From assembly GCF_018390555.1 (NCBI RefSeq), contig NZ_JAHBGB010000002.1, positions 868,001-932,000 of the forward strand: 64,000 nucleotides of DNA. The letters run 5' to 3'. Made by a program: the position numbers and the translations under genes. Below are positions 20,440 to 23,167 of the stretch, piece by piece. This stretch comes from Ancylobacter oerskovii. Its GTDB lineage: Bacteria; Pseudomonadota; Alphaproteobacteria; Rhizobiales; Xanthobacteraceae. The notes beneath the pieces were generated by a model. It was not told the origin of the DNA and ran no database searches. It worked only from the letters and a program-made list of their open reading frames with translations. How positions within the stretch are numbered: the stretch's first letter is position 1; each line of letters opens with the position of its first letter.

Positions 20440-21561
20440 ATGTCCTTCAACAGTTTCGGCCAGTCTTTCCGGGTGACCACCTTCGGCGAGAGCCATGGCC
20501 CCGCCATTGGCGGCGTCGTTGATGGCTGCCCGCCCGGCATCGCCTTCAGGCTGGAGGAGATCCAGGCGGCGCTCGACCGGCGCCGGCCCGGCCAATCGCG
20601 CTTCACCACCCAGCGGCGCGAGCCCGACGAGGTGAAGGTGCTCTCCGGCGTGCTGCCCGGCGAGGACGGCCTGCTCACCACCACCGGCACGCCGGTCGCC
20701 TTCCTCATCGAGAATGTCGATCAGCGCTCCAAGGACTATTCGGCGATCTCCGAGAGCTACCGGCCCGGCCATGCCGACTATGCCTATGACGTGAAATACG
20801 GCCTGCGCGACCATCGCGGCGGCGGGCGCTCCTCCGCCCGCGAGACGGCGGTGCGCGTGGCGGCCGGGGCGCTCGCCATGAAGGTGCTGCCCGGCGTCAC
20901 CGTGCGGGGCGCGCTGGTGCAGATGGGCGACATCCATATCGACCGCGCCAGCTGGAACTGGGACGAGATCGGCAACAACCCGTTCTTCTGCCCGGACGCG
21001 CAAGCGGCGGCGCGGATGGCCGACTACCTCGACGGCATCCGCAAGTCCGGCTCCTCGGTGGGGGCGGTGATCGAGGTGGTGGCCGACGGTGTGCCGCCCG
21101 GCCTCGGCGCGCCGATCTACGGCAAGCTCGATGCGGATCTGGCGGCGGCCTTCATGAGCATCAACGCGGTGAAGGGCGTCGAGATCGGCGAGGGCTTCGC
21201 GAGCGCCGCGCTCACCGGCGAGGACAATGCCGACGAGATGCGCATGGGCAATGACGGCAAGCCGATCTTCCTCGCCAACCATGCCGGCGGCATATTGGGC
21301 GGTATCTCCACCGGCCAGCCGGTGGTGGCGCGCTTCGCGGTGAAGCCGACCTCCTCGATCCTGACGCCCCGCAAGACGGTGACGCGCTATGGCGAGGACG
21401 CCGAGATCCTCACCAAGGGCCGGCACGACCCCTGCGTCGGCATCCGCGCCGTGCCGGTGGGCGAGGCGATGATGGCCTGCGTGCTGGCCGACCATGTGCT
21501 GCGGGCGCGGGCGCAGGTGGCGGTGCCGCCGGCGTGGCCGTTCGCCCGGCCGGAGGCCTGA
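20440..21561 (+). CDS. aroC: chorismate synthase
   Basis: 373 aa. Converts 5-enolpyruvylshikimate-3-phosphate to chorismate using reduced FMN, the last common step of aromatic amino acid synthesis. Signatures are present in order: [19 protein letters not shown] at the N-terminus, [30 protein letters not shown] (flavin/substrate loop), and [16 protein letters not shown] near the C-terminus. The start [20 protein letters not shown] is typical. The family B repeat and the ribB promoter follow, so ribB is probably transcribed separately. This link between an FMN-dependent enzyme and riboflavin synthesis may be coincidental. Confidence 0.97.
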
Positions 21562-21791: not shown

Positions 21792-21859
21792 TTTCAGTAC
21801 GGCTGAAAATGCAATGTTATTTCATTGCAGCTGAACCCGCCCGCTTCTATAATTTCCGC
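21792..21859 (+). promoter_or_regulatory. ribB promoter with two dyads, predicted leaderless start
   Basis: The -35 is TTGCAG (21825-21830) and the -10 TATAAT (21848-21853), with exactly 17 bases between. Counting from the -10, position +1 falls on 21860, the A of the ATG for the helix-turn-helix/RibB protein; no Shine-Dalgarno precedes it. Dyad 1 is TTTCAG-TACGG-CTGAAA (21792-21808). Dyad 2 is TGCAATG-TTATTT-CATTGCA (21810-21829) and overlaps the -35. The region is AT-rich against its surroundings. The product itself has a DNA-binding domain, so autoregulation is a natural hypothesis. No FMN riboswitch fold was recognised. Confidence 0.7.
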
Positions 21860-23167
21860 ATGAAACTGGCGGATTGGCTCACTTCGACCGGCACCACGCG
21901 CAGCGCTTTCGCCCGCGCGTGCGGCCTGTCGCCGGCGAGCATCACCGCCCTGTGCAAGGACGACCCGGCCTGGGTCTCGCGGGAGGCGGCGGCGCGCATC
22001 GCCGCGGCGACGGGCGGCGCGGTGACGCCGAACGACTTCCTCGGGCTCGACATCAGCGAGGTGAAGACCATGACCGACAATCTCCAGGCCCGCGTCCAGG
22101 CGGCCATCGAGGCCTTTGCCCGCGGCGACATGCTGGTCGTCACCGATGACGACGACCGCGAGAACGAAGGCGACATCATCCTCGCAGCCGTCCACGCCAC
22201 CCCGGAAAAGCTCGCCTTCATCGTTCGCCACACCTCCGGCATCGTCTGCACGCCGATCACCGCCGAGCATGCGCGCAAGCTGCGGCTCAACCCGATGGTG
22301 AGCGACAACGACGCCCCGCACTCCACCGCCTTCACCATCTCCATCGACTACAAGCACGGCACCACCACCGGCATCTCGGCCGAGGACCGCACCGCCACCG
22401 TGCGCGGCCTCGCCAACCCCAATGCGGGGGCCGCGGACTTCGTGCGGCCGGGCCACATCTTCCCGCTGATCGCCCGCGAGGGCGGGGTGCTGATGCGCTC
22501 CGGCCATACCGAGGCGGCGGTGGATCTGTGCAAGCTCGCCGGCGTCGAGCCGGTCGGCGTCATCTGCGAACTGGTCAATGACGACGGCACGGTGATGCGC
22601 GGGCCGCAGGTGAGCGACTTTGCCAATGCCCACAAGCTGACCCGCGTCTCGGTGGCCGACCTGATCGCCTATCGCCAGTCGCGCGAGAAGCTGGTGACGC
22701 GTGCTGCCGAGTTCACCGCCCCCACCGTGGTCGGCGACATGCACGGCATCTCCTATGTCACCCCGTTCGAGCCGGTGAACCACCTCGCGCTGGTGCACGG
22801 CAAGATCGGCGACGGCCGCAACGTGCTGGTGCGGCTCCACCGCGCCGACCCGATCGGCGACGTGTTCACCGGCGGCAAGGCGATCCAGACCTCGCTGGAG
22901 CGCATCAAGGCGGAAGGGCGCGGCGTACTCGTCTATCTGCGCGACGGCACCGCCGGCGTGCCGACCACCTCGGTCGGGCAGGAGGAAGGCAAGACCGAAT
23001 CGACGCGGCTGCGCGACGAGGCCTGGCGCGAGGTCGGGCTGGGGGCGCAGATCCTGAAGGATCTCGGCATCACCTCGATTCGCCTCATCGCCTCCCGCAC
23101 GCGCACCTATGTCGGCGTCGCCGGCTTCGGCATCGAGATCGTCGGCACCGAGGTACTGGATGTCTGA
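21860..23167 (+). CDS. ribB: helix-turn-helix domain fused to DHBP synthase (RibB) and degenerate RibA-like domain
   Basis: 435 aa from ATG 21860. Residues 1-65 (MKLADWLTSTGTTRSAFARA, ITALCKDDPAWVSREAAARI) read as a Cro/C1-type helix-turn-helix. From about residue 71 the protein is 3,4-dihydroxy-2-butanone-4-phosphate synthase: DDDDRENEGDIILAA (acidic metal/substrate loop), HSTAFTISIDYKHGTTTGIS, and RSGHTEAAVDLCKLAG. This enzyme makes the four-carbon unit of riboflavin. The C-terminal third is related to GTP cyclohydrolase II, but the zinc cysteines are lost (LVRLHRADPIGD and TGGKAIQ where active enzymes have HSECLTGD and RCDCG), so it should be inactive. A second in-frame ATG at 22070, with GAGGTG six bases upstream, begins a conventional RibB. 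Confidence 0.9.
   Translation: MKLADWLTSTGTTRSAFARACGLSPASITALCKDDPAWVSREAAARIAAATGGAVTPNDFLGLDISEVKTMTDNLQARVQAAIEAFARGDMLVVTDDDDRENEGDIILAAVHATPEKLAFIVRHTSGIVCTPITAEHARKLRLNPMVSDNDAPHSTAFTISIDYKHGTTTGISAEDRTATVRGLANPNAGAADFVRPGHIFPLIAREGGVLMRSGHTEAAVDLCKLAGVEPVGVICELVNDDGTVMRGPQVSDFANAHKLTRVSVADLIAYRQSREKLVTRAAEFTAPTVVGDMHGISYVTPFEPVNHLALVHGKIGDGRNVLVRLHRADPIGDVFTGGKAIQTSLERIKAEGRGVLVYLRDGTAGVPTTSVGQEEGKTESTRLRDEAWREVGLGAQILKDLGITSIRLIASRTRTYVGVAGFGIEIVGTEVLDV

Follow-up and report, generated by a model that had tools for sequence, protein, structure and literature searches.

The ribB gene in a 64,000-nt stretch of Ancylobacter oerskovii DNA (hereafter, the window) probably encodes an enzyme that represses its own synthesis. 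A leaderless product made of a Cro-like helix-turn-helix (HTH) and RibBX would act on two operators, O1 and O2, and an internal start would make free RibBX. The name RibBX stands here for a RibB domain followed by a GTP-cyclohydrolase-II-like part, a type to which we take this protein to belong. An initial annotation of the sequence had proposed the core of this interpretation. It is supported when 114 distinct fused genes are compared: as judged from their sequences, the architecture, the operator, the covariation of operator and HTH, the 5′-terminal start and the internal start are conserved. The relevant features are as follows, with operator positions given relative to the first ATG:

21792–21808, no strand: candidate operator O1, TTTCAGT-N3-RCTGAAA, a conserved dyad centred at −60.

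21810–21829, no strand: dyad TGCAATG-N6-CATTGCA, overlapping the −35.

21820–21836, no strand: candidate operator O2, a weaker copy (TTTCATTGCAGCTGAAC) centred at −32, overlapping the −35 and 28 bp from O1.

21825–21830, forward strand: −35-like TTGCAG; ATTGC is found here in 29 of 30 Ancylobacter loci.

21848–21853, forward strand: −10 TATAAT, beginning at −12 relative to the ATG.

21860–21862, forward strand: leaderless start codon and putative +1.

21860–23167, forward strand: coding sequence (435 aa) for a Cro-like HTH, RibB and a cysteine-free GTP-cyclohydrolase-II-like domain (RibBX type).

21860–22045, forward strand: N-terminal Cro/C1-like HTH domain, residues 1–62, supported by Pfam HTH_26, profile A2 and dN/dS.

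21929–21958, forward strand: putative recognition helix, residues 24–33 (SPASITALCK), placed by analogy with the Cro fold.

22058–22063, forward strand: internal Shine-Dalgarno sequence GAGGTG, 6 nt before the ATG at 22070.

22070–22072, forward strand: internal start ATG (residue 71), which would yield RibBX without the HTH.

22100–22672, forward strand: RibB (DHBP synthase) domain, residues 81–271 (Pfam DHBP_synthase, 279.7 bits).

22700–23146, forward strand: cysteine-free GTP-cyclohydrolase-II-like domain, residues 281–429 (Pfam GTP_cyclohydro2, 100.6 bits).

The initial annotation had described the reading frame as an HTH followed by RibB. Both domains are present, and the GTP-cyclohydrolase-II-like third part had been overlooked. 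The HTH scores weakly against HTH_26 (cut-off 22), with 23.0 bits when residues 1–70 are taken by themselves and 19.0 in the full protein, and the HTHs of relatives lie well above the Pfam threshold (for instance, HTH_3 with 36.4 against 23 in L059). A profile of the HTH family, A2, matches the phage Cro chains 8co2 and 8c7k with E values of 3–4e-7 over positions 1–59 of 63. The domain is under purifying selection (dN/dS 0.01–0.26 in six pairs), which ruled out mis-annotation. In the enzyme part, residues R100-E101, E103-G104-D105 and G215-H-T-E-A219 of RibB are invariant in 44 fused proteins, and these residues together with the Pfam score predict an intact RibB domain. No cysteine follows residue 280 in the A. 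oerskovii protein; among 113 fused proteins longer than 400 aa, the second domain contains no cysteine in 91, one in 21 and three in one. The only enzyme domains detected in the fusion are RibB and the GTP-cyclohydrolase-II-like part, and the riboflavin kinase domain that would characterize an RbkR protein is absent. The ORF upstream of ribB (20440–21561) resembles chorismate synthase AroC by eye, and a motif search found an AroC motif at 53 of the retrieved loci, duplicates counted.

The fusion is found in a sizeable group of genomes, from many bacteria of soil and water. All 29 other Ancylobacter genomes compared match residues 1 to 434 or 435. In the order, 92 of 397 sampled genomes have the HTH at E 1e-8; the matches number 93, and 74 of the 91 that were examined (G124 and G439 were left out) are fused in frame to RibB. 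These fusions are distributed among the families coded f1, f20, f23, f28, f35, f41, f42 and f50, and two further RibB fusions occur in f94, outside the order. In a sample of the phylum, the HTH is matched at the same threshold in 11 of 249 genomes, two of which, with weak and partial matches, lie outside the class. Removal of rows identical in both upstream region and HTH left the comparison set of 114 fused ribB genes, 30 of them from Ancylobacter. In a RibB tree of 106 rows, for which six Ancylobacter rows were kept, six changes are required to account for the label ‘free’, and four free forms from the family of Ancylobacter sit among fused ones; the tree points to an ancient fusion that was later lost in places, transfer being possible. 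A mobile origin was discarded, as tblastn searches with the HTH against phage and plasmid collections gave no match at E 0.01.

The promoter described in the initial annotation is present upstream of the ATG at 21860: TTGCAG is followed after 17 nt by TATAAT, and 6 nt separate the latter from the A of the start codon. A promoter scan that requires four of six matches detected no promoter; TTGCAG agrees with TTGACA at three positions only. Among the fused genes, a TANNNT element begins at −13 to −11 in 71 of 114, whereas no control slot has more than 8; its distance to the ATG in those genes is 5–7 nt (6 nt in 56), and the remaining 43 genes lack the element at the expected place. The statement that no Shine-Dalgarno sequence precedes the first ATG holds for 113 of the 114 genes, a Shine-Dalgarno-like 4-mer being found in one. 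An in-frame stop lies within 30 nt upstream of the first ATG in 68 genes; in the A. oerskovii window, the frame is open back to 21692. Position −1 is a C in 91% of class I fused genes. From the gap of 6 nt after the −10 and the lack of a Shine-Dalgarno sequence, we infer a leaderless mRNA with a 5′-terminal AUG.

Upstream of this start, perfect 5-bp inverted arms separated by 5 nt are found within 100 nt in 100 of the 114 fused genes, compared with 12.6 expected from dinucleotide shuffles, and in 36 of 44 diverse representatives; 14 of the 114 genes lack a perfect dyad. Spacers of 3 and 7 nt also give high counts (77 and 95 genes), as longer arms would produce them. In most genes of class I, the site reads TTTCAGT-N3-ACTGAAA, as O1 does in A. 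oerskovii, and its centre lies near −60 or −61. The pattern TTTCAGTNNNNCTGAAA, searched with up to two mismatches, detects exactly two sites in the 64 kb, 21792–21808 and 21820–21836, with 0.05 matches expected. A second site is also common elsewhere: of the 67 genes in which an exact O1 lies upstream of −50, 51 have a best second site that reaches 10/14 or more (36 of 3350, about 1%, in a shuffle control), and an O2-like site with a score of 9 or more lies 27–29 bp from O1 in 60. In G035, O1 is found without mismatches and O2 with one, 27 bp apart. The distance of 28 bp in A. oerskovii does not correspond to an integral number of helical turns. Positions are clade-specific. Class II, found in f23 and made of 12 of the fused ribB genes including L136, has a TATTAGC-N3-GCTAATA-like site on the −10, centred at −16 to −18 in 10 of the 12; in the f20 clade the best operator-like site is at −34. 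Depending on the clade, the candidate operator lies at about −60, at −34 or at about −17 over the −10.

The initial annotation had pointed to two dyads whose conservation in relatives of the same architecture was a check set in advance. TTTCAG-N5-CTGAAA, at 21792–21808, is present and conserved across the fused homologues. In contrast, TGCAATG-N6-CATTGCA, searched as GCAAT-N6..8-ATTGC, is kept in 5 of the 30 distinct Ancylobacter loci and was rejected as the main operator: it is lineage-specific on these sequences, and the conserved operators are those at 21792–21808 and 21820–21836.

The mechanism that we favor is the following. The leaderless mRNA would begin at the A of the ATG at 21860 and produce HTH-RibBX. 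DHBP synthases dimerise, and a dimer formed through the enzyme part would pair two HTHs on the 17-bp operators, in which 10 bp separate one half-site from the other. With O2 over the −35 and O1 28 bp upstream, binding of abundant fusion protein would switch the promoter off. The same mRNA would also be translated from the ATG at 22070 by means of its own Shine-Dalgarno sequence, yielding free RibBX. As these subunits pair with the fusion or with each other, dimers that have a single HTH or lack it altogether would form and the fusion would be diluted. The ratio between initiation at the 5′-AUG and internal initiation would, in consequence, set the threshold of repression.

Repression is preferred because the sites overlap the −35 or the −10 in most clades examined. 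The position of O1 has, however, another side: an operator centred at −60 occupies a classical activator position, and activation is therefore conceivable. The fusion might be an activator, or an activator at O1 and a repressor at O2: O1 would aid a weak −35, and the filling of O2 would turn the promoter off at high levels of the fusion, an activator-then-repressor pattern of the kind known for lambda CI at PRM. The centre of O1 at −60/−61 in most class I genes fits such a scheme, as do the poor −35 and the fact that O1 is the stronger site and O2 a degenerate one. Sites at −34 in f20, or at about −17 in 10 of the 12 class II genes, would in contrast block the polymerase, and we regard activation as unlikely.

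The autogenous repression that we favor includes a second product, and the second in-frame ATG noted in the initial annotation, at 22070 with GAGGTG before it, is there. Its counterparts are widespread: 102 of the 114 fused genes have an in-frame ATG, GTG or TTG in the linker with AGGA, GGAG or GAGG at 4–11 nt (71 ATG, 29 GTG and 2 TTG). The number expected from resampling of synonymous codons in the 114 genes is 57.3 (sd 3.9; highest value 68 among 300 draws), so that the protein sequence alone accounts for about half of the signal. In the 44 diverse representatives, the combination is found in 40 (25 ATG, 14 GTG and 1 TTG), compared with 18.6 in synonymous resampling (maximum 26 in 1000 draws) and 8.3 in codon shuffles (maximum 16). 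When windows of equal length elsewhere in the genes were scored, seven of eight gave 0 to 8; the one at residue 200 gave 82 of 114, because of conserved codons. A second isoform is thus predicted from a conserved in-frame start that has its own Shine-Dalgarno sequence.

The internal signals also admit an explanation in which the leaderless fusion is the sole product and the internal ATG or GTG, with its Shine-Dalgarno sequence, is a relic of the ribB start that existed before the fusion. Free RibB proteins of relatives do begin near the internal start, about half of the score is reproduced by resampling, and 10 of the 30 Ancylobacter loci, which make up ten of the 12 misses overall, lack a strict 4-nt Shine-Dalgarno core. 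Against this stands the retention of the internal start in 40 of 44 representatives, in a linker that is variable and where the start codon alternates between ATG and GTG. Nor is such a site found in residues 55–80 of the listed fusions of a related HTH to CoaBC, MeaB, glutamine-synthetase-like proteins or SucA; among 18 longer non-RibB genes with the HTH module, a start with a Shine-Dalgarno sequence in that interval is found in one only (L169, with two TTG codons). A relic therefore seems rather improbable to us.

Operator and HTH appear to belong together. With one mismatch allowed, the O1 site occurs once per genome in 28 of the 30 Ancylobacter genomes, always before ribB; the two exceptions, L027 and L028, have the site with two mismatches, and a reversed control pattern finds a match in 6 of the 30. 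No operator-like site is present in the 280 nt upstream of 16 free ribB genes. In the family, 17 of 61 genomes have an O1-like match; in the part of these 17 that was examined, G033 and G034, whose ribB is free, have one-mismatch matches away from that gene. The A. oerskovii genome has one strong copy of the HTH module according to profile A2 (112 bits, the next match having 23), and the broader profile A4 adds a partial match of 44.3 bits at C39:96193, in a 109-aa frame with a different upstream dyad. Exact TTCAG-N5-CTGAA is found twice in this genome. The second copy (C39:156470–156484, L232) is flanked by ORFs that resemble phage tail and portal proteins by eye, not by rib genes, and a wider regulon was rejected.

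Residue 30 of the HTH varies with the third base of the half-site, a gene being counted if either half matches [AT]T[CT]AG. The combinations found in the 114 genes are Ala with C (87), Ala with T (0), Gln with T (16) and Gln with C (2), and in the remaining nine Ala (3), Gln (5) or Gly (1) accompanies another base. Some of the scored genes have one imperfect half-site, such as L131 (TTTAG/TTCAG). Relatedness of the genes weakens the covariation: a tree-aware analysis has four independent pairs, with a mean of 2.8 concordant, 0 opposed and 1.2 without difference (p ≥ 0.25). The match between the operator at the ribB promoter and the HTH domain that the gene encodes is a comparative one. The weak Pfam score of the HTH would accommodate a different view, namely that another regulator binds the dyads and that the HTH is structural or vestigial. 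That view is very unlikely given the covariation of residue 30, the lack of the operator at 16 free ribB genes, the fact that 28 of 30 Ancylobacter genomes have exactly one site, and the purifying selection on the HTH.

Many rib genes elsewhere, commonly ribB among them, are controlled by FMN riboswitches, and such control has a negligible probability here: no Rfam family reaches its gathering score in the 64-kb window, RF00050 was not found under strict filters in A. oerskovii or in G008, five of the 61 family genomes have RF00050 and no ribB was detected in the 3-kb stretches around it (L048–L052), and a leader does not fit between the −10 and the ATG. The initial annotation had likewise recognized no such element. 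Next to the riboswitches of L050–L052 lies an ORF that resembles lumazine synthase RibH by eye. As to RibA, none of the 30 Ancylobacter genomes has a match above the TIGR00505 cut-off. A relative with 171–178 bits is present in ten of them and a match of 47–58 bits in 29; apart from these, the RibBX domain alone matches. In A. oerskovii, the match of the 47–58-bit type (C12:774829–775263, L234) belongs to a PRK07198 cyclohydrolase that has a DUF1688 gene next to it.

A related HTH heads proteins other than RibB. It precedes CoaBC, an enzyme of coenzyme A synthesis, at seven loci of f32 (L137, L140, L144, L148, L149, L151 and L153; TIGR00521 with 400.8 bits in L144), SucA, the E1 component of 2-oxoglutarate dehydrogenase, in L168 (PRK09404 with 616.5 bits over the available part, the model cut-off being 764), PyrB in one genome (L219; PRK00856 with 394.5 bits), MeaB in L174, L185 and L191, glutamine-synthetase-like proteins in L178, L180, L186, L188, L209, L213 and L228, and a NarJ/TorD-like protein in L169 (Nitrate_red_del). 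The fusions to SucA, PyrB, MeaB, glutamine-synthetase-like and NarJ/TorD-like proteins come from other Alphaproteobacteria. Pfam or NCBIfam models were applied to L144, L168, L169, L174, L178, L180, L185, L186, L209, L219 and L228, and the remaining non-RibB partners were assigned by sequence likeness only; L170 (198 aa) had no Pfam family match. Dyads of the 5-N5-5 type are found in 9 of 16 non-RibB fusions (1.8 expected) and in 15 of 22 stand-alone HTH genes (4.0 expected), many of them centred at −12 to −21, and a clear dyad is missing in several module genes, such as L137 and L178. The CoaBC fusions have TTACA-N5-TGTAA near the −10, exact in L148, L149 and L153 and degenerate in the other four. 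Small HTH proteins of about 65–181 aa were also seen (L150, L155–L160, L175, L183, L187 and L189), most of which look leaderless and have a palindrome whose centre lies between −17 and −20. Leaderlessness is not universal among module genes, as the start is preceded in L172, L179 and L219 by a leader that contains, by eye, a purine-rich and Shine-Dalgarno-like stretch.

A tentative view, for which the odds are slightly less than even, is that a portable leaderless cassette, made of promoter, operator and a Cro-like HTH translated from a 5′-terminal AUG, repeatedly captured alphaproteobacterial metabolic genes, and that ribB kept its old start. Each in-frame fusion would give an enzyme a private feedback loop in one step. 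From ribB, one mRNA would make the free enzyme as well as a repressor-enzyme, and repression would be tuned by how often initiation is leaderless relative to Shine-Dalgarno-dependent.

Fusions of enzyme and repressor are already known. BirA and PutA are autogenous enzyme-repressors (‘trigger enzymes’) that have an enzyme and a DNA-binding domain in one chain and act on their own promoter, as predicted here. However, their enzymes and DNA-binding domains are others, and HTH-RibBX differs from them in its leaderless start, internal second start, Cro-like HTH and apparently single-gene regulon. The archaeal RbkR, another known case, also joins an HTH to an enzyme of the flavin pathway; that enzyme is a riboflavin kinase and its regulon is wider, whereas HTH-RibBX contains RibB, and 28 of 30 Ancylobacter genomes have a single operator locus. 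Phage Cro binds short palindromic operators and represses itself. It and small Cro-like repressors such as 8co2 and 8c7k share the HTH similarity but are free small proteins. RibBX proteins share the RibB domain and the cysteine-free GTP-cyclohydrolase-II-like domain (residues 77–429 here). The longest solved matches, 6mnz and 4i14 (RibBA), begin at residues 77–79, and the A. oerskovii protein has an additional HTH of 62 aa in front. In Wolbachia, the transcription factors wBmxR1 and wBmxR2 are reported to bind upstream of the bifunctional riboflavin gene ribA, at its promoter, and to act as positive regulators of a ribA promoter reporter (PMC3518464). They too are alphaproteobacterial riboflavin regulators, but they are separate proteins and not fused to the enzyme (PMC3518464). 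In the open-licence literature searched, no description of RibB or CoaBC fused to an HTH was found. The present case differs in the RibB partner, in the combination of a leaderless start with a conserved internal one, in a regulon of apparently one site, and in the presence of the HTH on unrelated proteins.

Should our interpretation hold, a sizeable share of the Hyphomicrobiales, in which 74 of 397 sampled genomes have the HTH-RibB fusion, would control riboflavin synthesis through an enzyme of the pathway itself and not through an FMN riboswitch. The gene would then be a natural one-gene feedback circuit with built-in control through the ratio of leaderless to Shine-Dalgarno translation. Tests are simple, as the candidate operator is known for most fused ribB genes. 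With a related HTH at the head of at least six further kinds of protein, a single fusion step may be a general route to enzyme autoregulation.
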